Source of the DNA: Sporosarcina sp. NCCP-2716
Lineage (GTDB): Bacteria > Bacillota > Bacilli > Bacillales_A > Planococcaceae
Assembly (NCBI RefSeq): GCF_023707985.1
Contig: NZ_BRCF01000001.1
Location: forward strand, 307,967-371,966
Direction of reading: 5' to 3'
DNA: 64,000 nucleotides
The stretch's first letter is position 1. Every line of letters starts with the position of its first letter. Position numbers and translations under genes: made by a program. Below are positions 2,629 to 14,879 of this stretch, in pieces. The notes under the pieces were generated by a model, which saw only the letters and a list, made by a program, of their open reading frames with translations, did no database searches and was not told where the DNA came from.

Positions 2629-3888
2629 ATGGAGACAATCATTGCGTTTATCATAATTTTCGGTTCCTTGGTCTTTTTCCACGAATTCGGGCACTTCCTG
2701 TTCGCGAAAAAGGCGGGTATCATGGTGCGCGAATTTGCAATCGGCATGGGACCGAAGATCCTCGGCATTCAAAAAGGGGAAACCCTGTACACCATCCGTC
2801 TGCTGCCGCTAGGCGGATATGTCCGTATGGCCGGGGAGGACTTCGATACGGTCGAGCTGCTTCCCGGCTACCGGGTCGGTCTGATCCTGAACAGCAAGGA
2901 TGAAGTCACGAAGATCCACTTGAACTCGAATGTGTCCAATCCGGACGTCCTGTTCATCGAGACGGAAATAGCTGACCTGTCGGATGAGCTGTATATCAAA
3001 GGGTATGACGAGGATGAAAACCTCGTCCGTTTCCCGATTTCGAGAACAGCTGTCATCTACGAAAAAGGGGATAAGACGCTGATTGCGCCGAAAGACCGGC
3101 AGTTCGATTCGAAGCCGCTGCTCGGACGGTTCCTCACCATCCTGGCGGGACCTGTATTCAACTTCATCCTGGCGTTCTTCGTGTTCCTCGCACTCGGCCT
3201 GCTGAACGGGGTTCCGACGAACGAGCCGATCATCACGGAAGTGCAGAAGGACAGTCCGGCAGCCGCTTCCGGCATGCAGGCTGGCGACTTCGTCAAAGAA
3301 GCAGACGGCAAGGCAGTGCACAGCTGGACGGATTTCACACAGGAGATCCAGGACAGCCCGGGCCGCCAGATCACTATCAAAGTGGAACGCGGCGGCGAGC
3401 TGAAAGAGCTGCAGGTCACTCCGGATACGATGGAAGATGCCGGACAGTCATTCGGCCAGATCGGTGTTCTCTATACGAGTCCTGTTGAAAAGAACCCATT
3501 GAAAGCAATCGCATACGGCGCCCAGCAGACGTGGTTCTGGATCGCCAAGATCTTTGAACTCCTCGGCATGCTGCTGACAGGCAAGTTCACGCTCGATGCG
3601 CTGTCCGGACCGGTCGGCATTTACAAAGCGACCGAACAAGTCGCACAGTATGGCGTCTTCAACCTGATGAATTGGGCAGCCGTTCTGAGCATCAACCTCG
3701 GGATCATGAACCTGCTGCCGCTCCCTGCACTTGACGGCGGACGCCTGCTGTTCTTCCTGTTCGAAGCGGTACGCGGCCGGCCGATCGACCGCCAGAAAGA
3801 AGGGATGGTGCATTTCGTCGGCATCATGCTTCTTATGCTGCTCATGCTTGTCGTCACATGGAATGACATCCAGAAATTCTTTTTCTAA
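2629..3888 (+). CDS. rseP: Site-2 intramembrane metalloprotease RseP/RasP
   Basis: Polytopic zinc metalloprotease that cleaves membrane-embedded anti-sigma factors, FtsL and signal peptides. HEFGH near residue 19 in the first membrane helix is the HExxH zinc site, and LPALDGGR near residue 365 supplies the third ligand. A PDZ domain (roughly 195-265, with the SPAAASGMQAGD loop) precedes the last helices. The 419-aa length is normal. ATG 2629 follows AAAGGTGGG. Placement between dxr and proS is the standard Bacillales arrangement. Confidence 0.95.
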   Translation: METIIAFIIIFGSLVFFHEFGHFLFAKKAGIMVREFAIGMGPKILGIQKGETLYTIRLLPLGGYVRMAGEDFDTVELLPGYRVGLILNSKDEVTKIHLNSNVSNPDVLFIETEIADLSDELYIKGYDEDENLVRFPISRTAVIYEKGDKTLIAPKDRQFDSKPLLGRFLTILAGPVFNFILAFFVFLALGLLNGVPTNEPIITEVQKDSPAAASGMQAGDFVKEADGKAVHSWTDFTQEIQDSPGRQITIKVERGGELKELQVTPDTMEDAGQSFGQIGVLYTSPVEKNPLKAIAYGAQQTWFWIAKIFELLGMLLTGKFTLDALSGPVGIYKATEQVAQYGVFNLMNWAAVLSINLGIMNLLPLPALDGGRLLFFLFEAVRGRPIDRQKEGMVHFVGIMLLMLLMLVVTWNDIQKFFF

Positions 3889-3930
3889 GAGATACATTCC
3901 CCTTCTAGGGGCAGATGGAGGCGACACACG

Positions 3931-5532
3931 ATGAAACAATCAGGTGTTTTCATACCTGCTGCAGAATCACCGAATCACTGTGTGGCGGACCGGATACTGG
4001 CACGGGCGGGTTATGTGCAGGAAACATCGGAAGGTATGTATGCTTACTTTCCGCTTGCCGGTAAAGTGCTGGACAATATCAAGCAGATCATCCGCAGTGA
4101 TATGGAAGCGGCAGGCGTGTTGGAGGTCGACCTTCCGTACGAACAATTTGCACACGCATCCGGAAAATCCGATGAAATGATCTTCCTGTCCTTCATCGAA
4201 AAAGAAGTGATCTCTTCCGAACAGCTGCCGATCTCCGTGTTCCACATCAAACAGCACGTGCGCAGCGGTGAAAGGCTCGCGCCGGAGAACGGATTGCTCA
4301 GTGCGAAGGAATTCGCGCTGATGAGCGGATATTCCTTCCATACCGATACGGCCGAAGCGATCGATCACAGCTCCCTTCTGCACGGTGTGTTCTCAAGCAT
4401 CTTCAGTAAAATCGGCGTGCCGTTCAGTGTACTGCAGAGTGAGCAGGAAATCGGCATGAAGGCATATGAGTTCGTTGCGTTCCCCGATTGCGGCGATGAA
4501 TGGATCGCGAGGAACGAGAGCGGCACATACGTGGCGAAAGCGGAGCTCACGGAGGCGCTGCGGGAGGGCCATGACGCAGCGGTCAAACAGAAACCGGCTG
4601 AGAAAGCGGCCGGCTCCGGGCGGACGGGGGATCAGCTCGCTGAAGTTTTACGTATAGGCGCAGACCGGGTGATCCACTCGTATCTGTACGAAATCGACGG
4701 GGATCCTGCTGTCGTCCTCATCCGCGGTGACCGGAAGCTGAACGAGCTGAAGCTGCAGAAAGCATGCGGCGCCGCCTCGCTTATCAAATTGCCGGACGCT
4801 AACGTGAAAGAGGTACTCGGGACGGAGGCAGACACTCTCGGTCCAGTCCAGCTGCCATTCGGTTTCCGTGTGCTTGCCGATTACAGTGTGGAGACGGTCG
4901 TCAATGGACTGTGCGGGGCGAACGAAGCGGACACATTCCTGCTGAACGTCAACCCGGACAGGGATTTCACGGCGGATGAATACATGGATATCCGGCTGGT
5001 GACGGAAGGGGAGCCCTCTCCGGACGGAAACGGCACACTCGCTTTCTCGAAAGGGACGGTGTTCGCCCGGATACTCGACCCGAAGCCTGTCTTCAGTAAA
5101 ATCGATATTGCCGGCAAAGGGACCCTCGAGATTTCAACCGGGTATTCCTATATGGATCTCACCCGGCTGTTCGCTGTAACAGCCGAATATTACAGTGACG
5201 GACTCGGGCTGAAATGGCCGCTCCGTCTGGCGCCGTATGATGTGCACCTGCTGATCGATGATTATGAGGACGACACGCAGCGGCAGCTGGCGGAAGAATT
5301 GAATTCTGTTATGAACGGATACCGGTACAGGATTCTGTACGATGAACGGAATGTCAGTCTGGAAGAGAAGAAACGCACGTCCGATATGCTCGGCATCCCG
5401 GTGAAGATCACCGTCGCCAGCGAAGCGGCGGACGGTATGATCGAGGTCACCTACCGGAGCACAGGGGAAACACACCACTGGCGCAAAGAAGAGGTGACCG
5501 AGAAACTGCAGGAATTTTTCAGAACAGAGTAA
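3931..5532 (+). CDS. proS: Prolyl-tRNA synthetase homologue, catalytically degenerate
   Basis: The position (rseP-proS-polC), the 533-aa length and the overall fold match bacterial-type ProRS: N-terminal class II half, inserted editing domain (about 215-375) and C-terminal anticodon-binding domain from LAPYDVHLL (433). The key motifs are not conserved. Roughly 25-30 residues around the usual YGPELMRLKDR...GPTHEE segment are missing after residue 80. The motif 2 FRDE...RPRFG is here HVRSGERLAPENG (109-121). The motif 3 GCYGIGVSR is here GYSYMDLTR (404-412). The GTKYS proline-pocket segment is DPKPVFS. The editing-domain Lys (IKSVLFK-like) and the GDHH histidines appear lost (IHSYLYE, EADTFLL). 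There is no frameshift or stop. It is a likely pseudo-synthetase, which would require another proS elsewhere; conventional annotation would simply call it proS. Confidence 0.8.
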   Translation: MKQSGVFIPAAESPNHCVADRILARAGYVQETSEGMYAYFPLAGKVLDNIKQIIRSDMEAAGVLEVDLPYEQFAHASGKSDEMIFLSFIEKEVISSEQLPISVFHIKQHVRSGERLAPENGLLSAKEFALMSGYSFHTDTAEAIDHSSLLHGVFSSIFSKIGVPFSVLQSEQEIGMKAYEFVAFPDCGDEWIARNESGTYVAKAELTEALREGHDAAVKQKPAEKAAGSGRTGDQLAEVLRIGADRVIHSYLYEIDGDPAVVLIRGDRKLNELKLQKACGAASLIKLPDANVKEVLGTEADTLGPVQLPFGFRVLADYSVETVVNGLCGANEADTFLLNVNPDRDFTADEYMDIRLVTEGEPSPDGNGTLAFSKGTVFARILDPKPVFSKIDIAGKGTLEISTGYSYMDLTRLFAVTAEYYSDGLGLKWPLRLAPYDVHLLIDDYEDDTQRQLAEELNSVMNGYRYRILYDERNVSLEEKKRTSDMLGIPVKITVASEAADGMIEVTYRSTGETHHWRKEEVTEKLQEFFRTE

Positions 5533-5589: not shown

Positions 5590-8500
5590 ATGGACGCTAC
5601 AACGAAGATGTCAATGCTGCTGCAGCAGATCGGACTGACGGAAGATGCAGTCGCTGCTCATTTCCATCATGCGGAACTGGAACGTGTGGATATCTACAAG
5701 AAATCCAGGGTCTGGCAGTTTGCAGTGACGCTGGACGAACCGCTGCCGTTTGAAGTATACACCTTGTTCCGCAAGCGGGTGAGTGAAGCGTTTTCCGCCA
5801 TCGCTGCCGTCCGTCTGCACATTTCGTCACGGAACCGGCCGGCGGATGCAGGCAAAGTGACCGCCTACTGGCCGGCCGTGATGGACGAACTCGGGGATAT
5901 TTCACCTCCGCTGCGCGAAGCGCTGACGGCACGGGAGCCTGAGCTGACAGGCGACAAACTGTCCGTCTGCTGCGTGAACGAAGTCCAGCAGCGGACACTG
6001 AAGAACAAATACGGCCAGCTGATTTCGAACGCCTTCGAGTCATTCGGTTTTGCGGGCATTTATCCTGAGTTCCTGCTTTCCGAGGTTCCTGAGGAGAAAC
6101 AGCAGGCGGAAGCCGCGTTTTTCGAAGAACGGAAGGCGGAAGAGGAAGCCTATGCCCAAAAAGCATTGGAAGCGATGCAGCAGCGGGATACGGCGAAGAA
6201 AGAAGGCGGCACCGCCCCGAGCGGTCCGATCTCCCTCGGCACGGCGATCCGCCACGACGAACCGATGGTCAGCATCCGCGAGATCCAGGATGAAGAGCGG
6301 CGCATCACGATCGAAGGGTTCGTGTTCGATGCGGAAGTCCGCGAACTGCGAAGCGGCCGTTCCCTGCTGACACTGAAAGTCACCGACTATACGGACTCCA
6401 TCCTCGTGAAGATGTTCTCCCGGGATAACGAAGACGCAGAGCTGATGAAGGCACTGACGAAGGGCAAATGGGTCCGTGCACGCGGCAGCATCCAGAACGA
6501 CACATTCGTCCGCGACCTCATCATGATGGCGCAGGATATCATGGAGGTTGCTCCTGTCGTGCGGAAAGACAAGTCACCTGACGGCCGGAAGCGCGCCGAA
6601 TTACATACCCATACGAAATTGAGCCAGATGGATGGGGTGTCTTCTGCAGCAGCGCTCGTCGAGCAGGCTGGAAAATGGGGGCTGCCGGCAATCGCCATAA
6701 CGGACCATGCCAATGTCCAGGCGTTCCCGGAAGCGTACAATGCAGGAAGGAAGCACGGCGTCAAAGTGCTGTTCGGGCTGGAAGCGAATCTGGTGGACGA
6801 CGGCGTGCCGATCGTCTACGACGAACAGCACCGTCTGCTTGAGGACGATACGTATACTGTTTTCGACGTGGAGACGACCGGCCTTTCCGCTGTCTATGAC
6901 ACGGTCATCGAGCTGGCAGCAGTCCGTGTCCGCAATGGGGAGATCATCGACCGATTCGAGCGGTTCGCCAATCCCCATCATCCGCTGTCCTCCACGACGA
7001 CTGAACTGACAGGCATCACGGATGATATGGTGAAAGATGCACCGGAAGTGGCGGACGTCATGAAGGACTTCATCGAATTCATCGGTGACTCCATCCTCGT
7101 AGCCCATAACGCATCTTTCGACATGGGCTTTTTCTATGAATCATGCAAGAAAGCCGGAATCGAAACGGTGAACCACCCGGCCATCGATACGCTCGAACTC
7201 GCCCGCATGCTGTATCCGGAACTCCGGAACCACCGCCTCAACACACTTGCGAAAAAGTTCGGCATCGAACTGACCCAGCATCACCGCGCGATCTATGACA
7301 CGGAAGCGACAGCCCACTTGTTCCTCCGGCTCATGAAAGATGCCGAGGAGAAAGGGATCGCCTATCTGGACGACTTCAACAAGAATGTCGGTGAGGGCGA
7401 TGCCTACAAACGCTCCCGCCCGTCCCACTGCACTCTTCTTGCCACGACGGATGAAGGGCTGAAGAACCTCTTCAAGCTCGTCTCCTATTCCCACATGGAT
7501 TATTTCTACCGCGTGCCGCGGATTCCGCGATCGCTGCTCGTCAAGCACCGGAAAGGGCTGCTCGTCGGTTCCGGATGCGACAAAGGGGAAGTGTTCGAAG
7601 CGCTCATGCAGAAGTCACTGGAAGAAGCGGAAGAAGTCGCGTCATTCTATGATTACCTCGAACTCCATCCGAAACCGGTATACAGTCATCTGATCGAACT
7701 CGAACTGATACGCGATGAATGGAACCTGGAAGACATCATGCGGAAGATGGTCAAGCTCGGCAAGAAGACAGGGCTCCCTGTTGTCGCGACCGGCAACGTC
7801 CACTATGTCGATCCGACAGACGCTTCCTACCGGGAAGTGCTCGTCCGCTCCCAGGGCGGCGCGAACCCGATGAACCGCCACAGTCTGCCGGCTGTCCATT
7901 TCCGCACGACCGATGAGATGCTCGAAGAGTTTGCGTTCCTAGGGCCGGAAACGGCGGAGAAGATCGTCATCGACAACAGTCTGGCAATCGTCGACCGGGT
8001 CGGGGATGTCAAGCCGATCAAAGACGACTTGTATCCGCCGCATATCGAAGGGTCGGAAGAGGAAGTCCGGTCACTGACCTATACGATGGCCCACGAGATT
8101 TACGGGGAGAAACTGCCTGACATCGTCGAGGCGCGTATCGAGAAAGAGCTGAAGTCGATCATCGGCAACGGGTTTGCCGTCATCTACCTGATCTCGCATA
8201 AGCTCGTGAAGAAGTCGCTGGACGACGGTTATCTCGTCGGCTCGCGGGGATCGGTCGGCTCGTCACTCGTCGCCACCATGATGGAAATCACGGAAGTCAA
8301 CCCGATGCCGCCCCATTACATCTGTCCGTCGTGCAAACAGGCGGAATTCTTCTCAGACGGCTCGGTCGGTTCCGGCTTCGACCTGCCAGACAAGGAATGT
8401 CCCGCGTGCCATGTCCCTTATCGGAAAGACGGGCATGACATCCCGTTCGAGACATTCCTCGGCTTCAACGGGGACAAAGTGCCGGATATCGACTTGAACT

Positions 8501-9903
8501 TCAGCGGTGAATACCAGGCGCATGCCCACAACTATACGAAAGAGCTGTTCGGTGAGGACTATGTGTACCGTGCGGGGACGATCGGAACAGTTGCGGAAAA
8601 GACCGCCTACGGCTATGTCCGGGGGTACATGAACGACAACGGACTGAACTTGCGCGGCGCGGAGATCGACCGGCTCGTCCAGGGGTGTACCGGCGTCAAA
8701 CGGAATACCGGACAGCACCCGGGCGGCATCATCGTCGTCCCGGACCATATGGAGATCTTCGACTTCACGCCGATCCAGTATCCGGCGGATGACGTCGGAA
8801 GCAGCTGGAAGACGACCCACTTCGACTTCCACTCGATCGACAACAACTTGCTGAAACTCGATATACTCGGGCACGATGACCCGACGATGATCAAAATGCT
8901 CGAAGATCTGTCAGGGATCGATCCAAAGACGATCCCGCCGGACGATGCAGGCGTCATGTCGCTGTTCAGCGGCACGGAGTCGCTCGGTGTCACGGAAGAA
9001 CAGATCAACTGCAAGACCGGTACTCTTGGTGTTCCAGAGTTCGGGACCCGGTTCGTCCGGCAGATGCTCGAAGAGACGAAGCCGGCAACGTTCTCCGAGC
9101 TCATCCAGATATCAGGCCTGTCGCACGGCACGGATGTCTGGCTCGGCAATGCCCAGGAACTGATCCAGAACAAGACGTGCGTGCTGGCCGAAGTGATCGG
9201 CTGCCGGGACGATATCATGGTCTACCTCATCTATCAGGGGCTCGAACCGGCGATCGCCTTCAAGATCATGGAATCCGTCCGGAAAGGGAAAGGGCTGACA
9301 CCGGAATTCGAGGAAGAGATGAAGAAGAACAAAGTCCCGGCCTGGTACATCGCCTCCTGTAAAAAGATCAAGTACATGTTCCCGAAAGCGCACGCAGCCG
9401 CATACGTACTCATGGCACTGCGTATCGCATATTTCAAAGTGCACCATCCGATCATGTACTATGCGGCCTATTTCACGGTCCGGGCGACCGATTATGATTT
9501 GGCCACGATGATCAAAGGACCGGCATCCATCCGCGCGTCCATCAAGGAGATATACGACAAAGGGCTCGACGCGTCACCGAAGGAGAAGAGCTTGGTGACG
9601 GTGCTCGAGATCGCACTGGAAATGTGCGAACGCGGGTATTCGTTCGCAAAGCCGGACCTGTACAAGTCCTCCGCAGCGGAGTTCATCATCGAAGGGAACA
9701 CTCTCATCCCGCCGTTCAACGCCATCCCTTCCCTCGGGACGAACGTGGCGAAAACGATTGTAGAAGTGCGGGAAGACGGCGAATTCCTTTCGAAAGAGGA
9801 CTTGCAGCGGCGGGGCCGTGTCTCGAAGACGATTACGGAATACATGGACAGCCTCGGCTGCCTCGAAGGCCTCCCGGAGATGAACCAGCTCTCCCTGTTC
9901 TGA
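5590..9903 (+). CDS. polC: DNA polymerase III alpha subunit, PolC type
   Basis: Replicative polymerase of low-GC Gram-positives, with built-in 3'-5' proofreading. The 1437-aa length is the usual one. Order: N-terminal domain, OB fold (about 225-325), PHP segment beginning [13 protein letters not shown], inserted DnaQ-like exonuclease with FDVETTGL and [11 protein letters not shown], second PHP part, zinc-binding CPSC...CPAC pair (about 912-940), and the polymerase palm with [12 protein letters not shown] carrying the catalytic aspartates. All key motifs look intact, in contrast to the upstream proS homologue. Confidence 0.98.
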
Positions 9904-12086: not shown

Positions 12087-12397
12087 TTACGGCGGAGACG
12101 AAGATCTACCAGATGCTCGGACTCGCCGCCCGGGCCAGGAAACTGACGGCCGGGGAAGAACTCGCTGTGGCCGAGATCCGGGCACAGCGCGCAAAACTTG
12201 TTATACTATCTAATGACGCATCTGATAACACGATGAAAAAAGTGTCAGATAAATGTACTAGCTACAACGTTGAGAAGCATGTTTTCGGTGATCGCGGATC
12301 ACTCGGGCATGCAATCGGAAAAGAGTCGCGAGTCGTCCTCGCGGTAACAGACAGCGGTTTTGCCAAAAAGCTGTCTATGCTCCTCAACGAATTATAA
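12083..12397 (+). CDS. ylxQ: L7Ae-family RNA-binding protein YlxQ
   Basis: A 104-aa protein beginning [21 protein letters not shown], with the L7Ae/L30e/S12e fold pattern ([13 protein letters not shown], then a [14 protein letters not shown] end). Members bind kink-turn RNA. The start is ATG 12083, overlapping the ylxR stop; a longer frame reaching back to 11840 would run inside ylxR and has no ribosome binding site. Confidence 0.92.
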
Positions 12398-12410
12398 CGG
12401 GGGTGGGCTA

Positions 12411-14879
12411 ATGACGAAAATACGTGTACATGAATACGCGAAAAAAGTGAACAAATCGAGCAAGGAAGTCATTGAAGAACTAGGGAAGATGAACGTGAAT
12501 GTCACGAACCATATGTCGATGATCGACGCTGGGGCTGCAGACAAACTGGATAAGAAATTCAGTCCGTCCAAACCGGCACAATCCGGTCAAGACAATACGA
12601 ACCGCTCGAAGCAGCCGTCTTCACGTCCGCAAGGCCAGTCCGGCAATTCGCGGCCTCAGGGACAAGGGAATTCCAACCGTCCGCAAGGTCAATCAGGCAA
12701 TCGCCCGGCCGGCCAGACGGGCAGCCGTCCGCAAGGCCAGTCCGGCAACCGCCCGGCAGGCCAGTCCGGCAATCGCCCGGCAGGCCAGTCCGGCAATCGC
12801 CCGGCAGGCCAATCAGGCAATCGCCCGCAAGGCCAATCAGGCAATCGTCCGCAAGGCCAAACAGGCAATCGTCCGCAAGGCCAGACAGGCAGCCGCCCGG
12901 CAGGCCAGACGGGCAACCGTCCTGCAGGTCAGTCAGGCAGCCAGGGACCTCAGCAGCGTTCCGGCCAGGGATCCTCTCCGCAAAACCGTCAGGGAGGCGG
13001 AGGCGGCAACCGCCGCGGGGGCCGTCCGCCAGCACGGGGCATAAACCAAGGACGCAGAAGACACCGTCCGGCGAATCCGATGCCGAAAATCGAAAAGCCG
13101 CTGCCGGAAAAAATTACATTCTATGAATCTCTGTCCGTCGGGGAACTCGCAAACAAACTGGGCAAAGAGCCTTCTGAAATCATCAAGAAGCTCTTCCTGC
13201 TCGGTGTAATGGCGACCATCAACCAGGAACTCGACAAAGATGCAATTGAACTGATCTGCGCTGAGTATGATGTAGCAGTCGAAGAAGAGATCCGCATCGA
13301 CCGCACCGACTTGGAAATCTATTTCGAAGAGCCGGAAGAAGACGAAAAGGCAGCTGAAAAAGAAGCTGCGATGGAAGAAAGACCGCCAGTCGTAACAATC
13401 ATGGGGCACGTCGACCATGGTAAGACGACACTGCTGGACTCGATCCGTGACACGAAAGTGACACAGGGCGAGGCAGGCGGCATCACGCAGCATATCGGTG
13501 CCTACCAGATCACGTCGGGCGGCAAGAAGATCACCTTCCTGGATACACCGGGACACGAAGCGTTCACGACTATGCGTGCACGCGGAGCGAAAGTGACCGA
13601 CTTGACGATCCTCGTAGTCGCAGCTGATGACGGTGTCATGCCGCAGACAGTCGAAGCCATCAACCACGCGAAAGCGGCAGAGGTTCCGATCATCGTAGCA
13701 GTCAACAAGATGGATAAACCGACAGCGAACCCTGACCGTGTCATGCAGGAACTGACAGAGCACGCCCTCGTTCCGGAAGCATGGGGCGGAGATACGATCT
13801 TCGTTCCGATCTCGGCACTGAAAGGCGAAGGGATCGATCAGCTGATCGAAATGATCCTTCTCGTATCCGAAGTCGCTGAACTGAAAGCGGACCCTGCAGT
13901 CCGTGCGAAAGGAACAGTGATCGAGGCCCAGCTGGACCGCGGACGCGGAGCTGTCGCTTCACTCCTAGTCCAGGACGGAACATTGCGCGTCGGGGATCCG
14001 ATCGTTGTCGGCAACACGTTCGGCAGAGTCCGCGCGATGATCAACGACGTCGGCCGCCGTGTGAAAGAAGCAGGTCCGTCCGCTCCGGTCGAAATTACCG
14101 GACTGAGTGACGTTCCTCAGGCAGGAGACCGTTTCGTCGTCTTCGAAGACGAAAAGACGGCACGCCAGATCGGCGAAAGCCGTGCAGGCGACGCCATCCA
14201 GGAATCACGTACCGAAAAGGCGCGTATCACACTCGACAACCTCTTCGATCAGATGAAAGAAGGGGAAATGAAGGAACTGAACCTGATCGTCAAAGCGGAC
14301 GTTCAGGGGACGGTCGAAGCGATGGCCGCTTCCCTCATGAAAATCGAAGTGGAAGGCGTCAACGTCAAGATCATCCACACAGGTGCCGGAGCGATCAACG
14401 AGTCAGACGTGTCCCTTGCAGCCGCATCCAATGCGATTGTCATCGGCTTCAACGTCCGGCCGGATACGAACGCGAAACGGGCAGCTGAAGAAGAGGGCGT
14501 CGATATCCGTCTTCACCGTGTCATCTACAAAGTCGTCGAAGAGATCGAAGCGGCGATGAAGGGGATGCTCGATCCTGAATTCGAGGAGAAAGTGATCGGT
14601 CAGGTCGAAGTCCGCGAGACATTCAAAGTTTCGAAAGTCGGCACGATTGCAGGAAGCTATGTAACCGACGGCAAGATTTCGAGAGATGCCGGCGTCCGTA
14701 TCTACCGCGATGACATCATGATCTTCGAAGGTGAACTCGATACGCTGAAGCGTTTCAAAGACGATGCAAAAGAAGTTGCAAAAGGCTACGAATGCGGAAT
14801 CACCATCAAAAACTTCAATGACATCAAAGAAGGCGACATCATCGAAGCCTTCGTCATGCAGGAAGTCAAGCGGGTGTGA
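12411..14879 (+). CDS. infB: Translation initiation factor IF-2
   Basis: GTPase that places initiator tRNA on the 30S subunit. The start is ATG 12411 ([13 protein letters not shown]) after GGGGGTGGG, giving 822 aa. An IF2_N-type motif comes first, then a low-complexity Gly/Pro/Gln/Asn/Arg linker with tandem 8-residue repeats (72-177), a second N domain ([16 protein letters not shown]), the G domain with [16 protein letters not shown] and NKMD, and beta-barrel and C-terminal tRNA-binding domains. The C-terminal two thirds look fully conserved. It overlaps ylxP by 4 nt. Confidence 0.97.
12624..12941 (+). repeat. In-frame 24-bp tandem repeats within infB
   Basis: About 13 consecutive copies of an 8-residue unit RP(Q/A)GQ(S/T)G(N/S), two of them one residue longer, encoded by near-identical 24-bp DNA units (for example CGCCCGGCAGGCCAGTCCGG). 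They form the linker between the IF-2 N-terminal motif and its second domain. The low divergence between units suggests recent slippage expansion. Confidence 0.92.

Follow-up and report, generated by a model that had tools for sequence, protein, structure and literature searches.

A degenerate prolyl-tRNA synthetase homologue in the native proS place of Sporosarcina sp. NCCP-2716, and its probable retirement beside an archaeal-type enzyme

The gene between rseP and polC in Sporosarcina sp. NCCP-2716 raises the question of why a prolyl-tRNA synthetase (ProRS) homologue should be kept in the native proS place when it is apparently without recognisable ATP, proline or editing sites, and of what such a protein might do. 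Most known cases of synthetase-like proteins that have taken up another role are old duplicates, and the path that led to them is hard to follow.

A ProRS homologue without recognisable active sites

The window, by which we mean the whole stretch of 64,000 nucleotides analysed here, carries the proS-derived gene at 3931..5532 on the + strand. It has 533 codons plus stop, runs from an ATG at 3931 to a TAA at 5530-5532 with the frame open throughout, and has orthologues in nine further genomes. A Shine-Dalgarno-like GGAGGC at 3917..3922 (+) is found in all 10 orthologues. The gene lies in the native proS place, between rseP upstream (2629..3888, +) and polC downstream (5590..9903, +); these two neighbours were used as synteny markers and both flank the native-type gene at 86 of the 87 loci with long flanks.

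Scores against family models are low. The protein reaches 255.8 bits with TIGR00409 (bacterial-type ProRS), below the curated cut-off of 306.7, 302.1 bits with NF006625 (like TIGR00409 an NCBIfam ProRS model; cut-off 558) and 24.2 bits with Pfam tRNA-synt_2b (cut-off 29.3). Two Pfam domains are above cut-off, tRNA_edit (PF04073, 52.1 bits) in the INS editing domain (4621..4959, +) and HGTP_anticodon (PF03129, 31.6 bits) in the anticodon-binding domain (ABD; 5233..5529, +). The open frame and retained domain layout of the preliminary description are both upheld. The closest solved structure by sequence is the ProRS 2j3l (287 bits). An AlphaFold model of the window protein, made with nine sequences, has a mean pLDDT of only 50.5 and is confident in the ABD only; its poor confidence probably stems from lack of alignment depth. 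For annotation it is worth bearing in mind that a match to a ProRS model in these genomes need not mean tRNA charging.

The sequence motifs tell where the protein has changed. The motif 1 region (residues 45-73; 4063..4149, +), which we take to be the dimer-interface motif, is well conserved among the ten proteins of the window clade. The loss of some 25-30 residues near THEE, as first reported, is seen in alignments as a 28-column gap before the TxE proline site, placing a junction at 4147..4153 (+) where 28 residues of normal ProRS are absent. The site itself (residues 80-83; 4168..4179, +) now reads SDEM, and all ten orthologues have S-x-E (SDE), with Thr changed to Ser and Glu kept. The divergence of motifs 2 and 3 is equally real. 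The motif 2 remnant with its loop (residues 109-121; 4255..4293, +) reads HVRSGERLAPENG; in the clade the loop is variable and two residues longer, and the motif 2 Glu is lost in 9/10. The motif 3 remnant (residues 404-412; 5140..5166, +) reads GYSYMDLTR, with two Gly replaced by Tyr and Asp in 10/10, while the first Gly and the Tyr of the motif are kept by most, if not all, members of the clade. The window protein has neither the FRxE of motif 2 nor the GCYGIGxSR of motif 3 that mark an active bacterial-type ProRS, and GHIF is also changed in the clade. Pro69 (motif 1), Arg111 (motif 2) and Arg412 (motif 3) are retained in all ten orthologues, as are E, P, D and G of an EG..SPDG segment (5005..5028, +).

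Since the motif 2 and motif 3 Arg remain in every member, some nucleotide binding by the window-clade protein could persist. These same two residues, with the motif 1 Pro and the S-x-E at the proline loop, might even be taken to mean that it adenylates another amino acid or acceptor (a carrier protein or another tRNA, as in ProRSx), but the variable, lengthened motif 2 loop, the near-complete loss of its Glu, the Tyr and Asp in place of motif 3 Gly and the altered GHIF make this highly improbable. The idea is more open for a group of 564-aa relatives, in which some adenylation is conceivable because motif 2 FRxE is kept in 13/15.

The editing site was also said to have been replaced, and here the claim stands, but for the GDHH His not as a feature of the clade. 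In the window protein His249 (4675-4677, +, within the INS domain) takes the place of the editing Lys in IK(T/S)L, a position that, from alignment, we take to be that of the published editing Lys; it is Lys in only 1/10 of the clade. The GDHH His is kept in 7/10 orthologues, so its loss in the window protein is not a clade feature, whereas the change of the editing His to Phe336 (4936-4938, +, also in INS) is, being found in 10/10. Elsewhere in the domain the first Gly of GxxxP is kept in 0/10 and its Pro in 10/10, and G, A and N of GANE persist in all ten. In the ERxGVKF signature of the anticodon domain, E, R, G and F are changed in 10/10 and the Lys is kept.

Across 249 reference sites, the window clade keeps 85 and has swapped 54 to one new residue in all ten proteins; the remaining sites are either variable (91) or inside the deletion (19). 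Within the clade itself 267 of the 533 alignment columns are invariant, and the best-conserved stretches include the first 80 residues, in which motif 1 lies, the surroundings of motif 3 and the C-terminus.

Selection on the 533-residue form

The nine further genomes with the 533-aa form belong to the same genus; their proteins show 61-70% identity, with an open frame and the same two flanking genes in each case. An order-level search of 261 genomes with a profile of the window clade found no further window-type form, the ten members scoring >1000 bits and the next match 458. Sequencing or assembly error was rejected as an unlikely explanation, given that the form recurs in nine other assemblies.

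Purifying selection acts on the gene, though less strongly than on its neighbours. By the Nei-Gojobori method, with pairs limited to 0.15-0.60 synonymous differences per site, the median dN/dS in the window clade is 0.091 (20 of 45 pairs usable); the same pairs give 0.039 for rseP and 0.026 for polC, so that the value for the window gene is 2.3 to 3.5 times as high. Medians elsewhere are 0.047 in the 564-aa clade (27/105 pairs), 0.055 in intact forms (36/435) and 0.133 in the genus coded g18 (6/210); two small groups with one usable pair each give 0.190 and 0.139, and another group has no usable pair. Pairs such as L020/L024 (dN 0.033, dS 0.286) have a dN/dS near 0.1, and the near-identical L018/L019 gives 0.64 on almost no changes. 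By domain, the ABD is slowest in the window clade (0.062) and INS fastest (0.145); in intact proteins the ABD gives 0.065 and INS, at 0.069, is again the fastest domain, so the rapid change of INS in the window clade is weak evidence. Together with motif losses common to ten genomes, the median supports the original proposal of a pseudo-synthetase maintained by selection, and a pseudogene is rejected on dN/dS.

The archaeal-type enzyme and the fate of the native gene

A second ProRS had been predicted elsewhere in the genome, and the contrary case, that there is none, is refuted. On another contig (G000:C9:17151-18581) lies an archaeal-type ProRS, apparently intact, that scores 589.9 bits with TIGR00408 against a cut-off of 437. 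A tRNA_edit search of the source genome gave no match at this locus, that is, no INS domain. At TxE, motif 2 and motif 3 the enzyme reads the same in all nine window-clade genomes examined, and the tenth (G170) has an archaeal-type match at E 6.2e-174. With its motifs intact, this is the likely replacing enzyme, and the suggestion that the ancestral gene between rseP and polC was displaced in function holds at the level of sequence.

The archaeal-type gene is preceded by a T-box core, GGTGGTACCGCG, in 9/9 window-clade genomes. The Rfam T-box model exceeds its gathering score at six of the seven archaeal-type loci scanned; the source genome's own T-box-like leader scores 82.9 bits, under the gathering score of 93 (E 2.1e-18). 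CCU stands near the presumed specifier position in the leaders viewed. No Rfam T-box was found at the native loci L017 and L020, nor anywhere in the 64-kb window.

The association of the two genes was then assessed across the family. Of its 261 genomes, 179 match the archaeal-type model at E 1e-100, and in 178 the match also exceeds the cut-off. Native-type proteins numbering 127 were aligned: 65 of 68 genomes of genus g1 (G210, G214 and G224, without a listed place, being left out), 22 of 25 of g18 (omitting G244 and G248, without a native-type gene, and G249, where two contigs each hold a part of it) and 40 chosen among the listed rows for other genera, in which degenerate forms may accordingly be missed. 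Where the archaeal-type enzyme is present, 57 of 102 native-type proteins are degenerate. Where it is absent none of 25 is, although these score zero by construction because the 249 reference sites were defined on them; left out one at a time, each loses 0 to 8 of about 250 sites. Intact proteins differ at 0-15 of the 249 sites and degenerate ones at 29 or more, with no protein in between. Genus g1 has 35 degenerate and 25 intact proteins with the archaeal-type enzyme, and none degenerate and five intact without it. The presence of the archaeal-type enzyme does not by itself bring about retirement, as 45 of the 102 native-type proteins that coexist with it are intact.

A quick tree from RseP and PolC flanking pieces, covering g1 and g18 only (L125 was dropped, its flank lacking), places degenerate forms on seven branches when read with loss as irreversible; unordered parsimony requires at least five changes. 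That the ancestor was intact is judged from the 40 proteins sampled in other genera, which are intact.

Some genomes seem to have dispensed with the native gene. By elimination, there is no match to the window protein in the 19 genomes of g14, the four of g4 and two of g18, a second search agreeing on the last two; in G010 (90% complete) neither ProRS type was seen. In the four near-complete g4 genomes (G012-G015) the archaeal-type ProRS is accompanied by neither a native-type match nor any tRNA_edit (PF04073) match, so there are relatives that do not need trans-editing. With PF04073 absent, g4 genomes may live without INS-type proofreading. Counts of tRNA_edit matches did not sort genomes within the genus, being 2-3 in the ten of the window clade and 1-3 in most others. 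The source genome has two freestanding INS-type proteins, one on G000:C4 (L077) just above the YbaK cut-off and one on G000:C3 (L078) that falls below it and could be given to no specific deacylase.

Outside the family, 80 of 138 class genomes with an archaeal-type ProRS were examined, with a native-type match at E 1e-35 in 43 and none in 37. Among the 43 are a degenerate full-length gene (G538), two genes interrupted by stops, three of them internal in G557 and one in G364, and a C-terminal fragment (G425). The native-type gene therefore appears to decay in some genomes, a state that the window gene does not resemble. That the latter is nonetheless a decaying relic without function, redundant beside the archaeal-type enzyme as the broken genes of G557, G364 and G425 and the 37 genomes without a match might suggest, seems barely credible given ten open frames of equal length, dN/dS near 0.1, a conserved ribosome-binding site and half the alignment columns invariant. 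The three broken genes, L236 (G557), L237 (G364) and L238 (G425), all occur with the archaeal-type enzyme present. The full-length gene of G538 (L235, family code f34), likewise beside an archaeal-type ProRS, shows a different order of loss, with INS eroded (GANE and GxxxP lost) and motif 2 reading YRDE.

A possible path from trans-editing to a non-catalytic role

The 47 degenerate proteins outside the window clade have mostly kept the editing residues, with the Lys present in 44/47 and the His in 40/47. Most sister lineages show far heavier loss of reference sites in the catalytic domain than in INS plus ABD. In L027, for instance, catalytic sites are lost at 55 of 176 positions against 5 of 73 for editing and anticodon sites (Fisher p 1.7e-5, sites taken as independent), and L112 is similar (59/176 against 5/73 for INS and ABD). 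The bias towards loss in the catalytic domain is absent in two of the 12 degenerate rows tested, L111 and L138; L111 is a borderline case that has both THEE and FRDE and could be an active enzyme even now. Because editing residues and the anticodon domain are mostly kept, the pattern suggests that most other degenerate lineages are trans-editing factors for mischarged tRNA-Pro. An editing-like role, one of the functions originally proposed, thus appears favoured for these lineages and disfavoured for the window clade, where the editing Lys and His are gone.

Published work on INS reports that its editing activity requires recognition of the anticodon by the ABD (PMC3973320), that K279A E. coli ProRS is editing-defective (PMC3973320), that the equivalent Lys is nearly universally conserved in the superfamily (PMC10164551) and that it contacts A76 (PMC10164551, PMC3973320). 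It is perhaps arguable that trans-editing of mischarged tRNA-Pro, which the relatives seem to perform, persists in the window protein with a changed chemistry: INS and ABD both remain, Pfam still recognises the former, GANE keeps its G, A and N and GxxxP its Pro, the archaeal-type ProRS is without INS and most degenerate relatives retain both editing residues. However, with the Lys found in one of ten proteins, the editing His and the first Gly of GxxxP in none, the anticodon signature mostly changed and two freestanding tRNA_edit proteins already in the source genome, we consider this unlikely, and pure trans-editing is disfavoured by the loss of the editing residues.

Binding of tRNA-Pro, charged or not, as a sensor or chaperone that does not edit, draws on the slow evolution of the ABD, about as in intact proteins, on the confidence of the AlphaFold model there and on the precedent of SLIMP, which binds tRNA without aminoacylating it (PMC9437257). 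Set against the change of E, R, G and F of the anticodon signature in every member, this too is doubtful.

The explanation that we prefer, and think reasonably probable, is that the protein is a former ProRS, displaced by the archaeal-type enzyme, that passed via trans-editing to become a non-catalytic, partner-binding protein. The window gene would be the cell's former proline-tRNA synthetase, the archaeal-type enzyme having taken over charging of tRNA-Pro. At first the old enzyme would have been retained to edit mischarged tRNA-Pro in trans, and most of the other degenerate lineages look as if they are at that stage; the window clade would then have lost editing too and would now work without catalysis. 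Since the clade has also lost both editing residues and a large part of the anticodon signature, the product is probably a non-catalytic dimer of class II fold whose partner would be a tRNA, a second protein or a metabolite, comparable to HisZ or SLIMP. As in non-catalytic synthetase-like proteins, the adenylation motifs are lost, as far as sequence tells, and the gene is kept by selection in ten genomes.

More tentatively, this may be a repeatable route within the family, in which an archaeal-type ProRS lets the native enzyme retire, some seven times over, first to a full-length trans-editing factor and, in the window clade, to a non-catalytic protein with its own conserved surface and partner. 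A single genus shows the steps as a series: the intact enzyme, forms in which the editing residues and ABD are retained, and a form with no recognisable active site. As this series survives beside the likely replacing enzyme, the retirement and reuse of an essential enzyme become directly testable.

Known systems offer partial parallels. The bacterial protein HisZ also derives from a synthetase and, having no adenylation activity, serves as a regulatory subunit (PMC9437257); it is a HisRS paralogue serving ATP phosphoribosyltransferase, its partner being known, whereas here the native-place gene itself has been retired and editing and anticodon domains are kept. SLIMP is likewise synthetase-like, without aminoacylation and with another role (PMC9437257), but is an insect mitochondrial SerRS paralogue. 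In archaeal ThrRS-ed and apo-T1 ThrRS of Anabaena, one protein charges and another edits in trans (PMC7373986, PMC4787780). They are a model for the sister lineages; the window clade differs in that editing residues are lost too and that two ProRS types of different origin coexist. ProXp-ala and YbaK have a homologous INS domain and the same context of tRNA-Pro proofreading (PMC3973320) but are freestanding single domains, while the window protein has retained the full domain layout of a ProRS. The Streptomyces protein ProRSx, a ProRS paralogue (PMC9437257), differs in being catalytically active, since it ligates Pro to a tRNA. Finally, Pol gamma-beta, the accessory subunit of the mitochondrial polymerase, resembles class IIa synthetases put to other use (PMC9653094); a comparable role with PolC was rejected, since adjacency alone ties the window protein to it, as in intact relatives. 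In the open-licence literature we found no paper pairing Sporosarcina with prolyl-tRNA synthetase and, among the matches listed, none on a retired ProRS in its native place.

Elsewhere in the window, the IF2 (infB-like) open reading frame at 12360-14879 has an N-terminal run of near-identical repeats.
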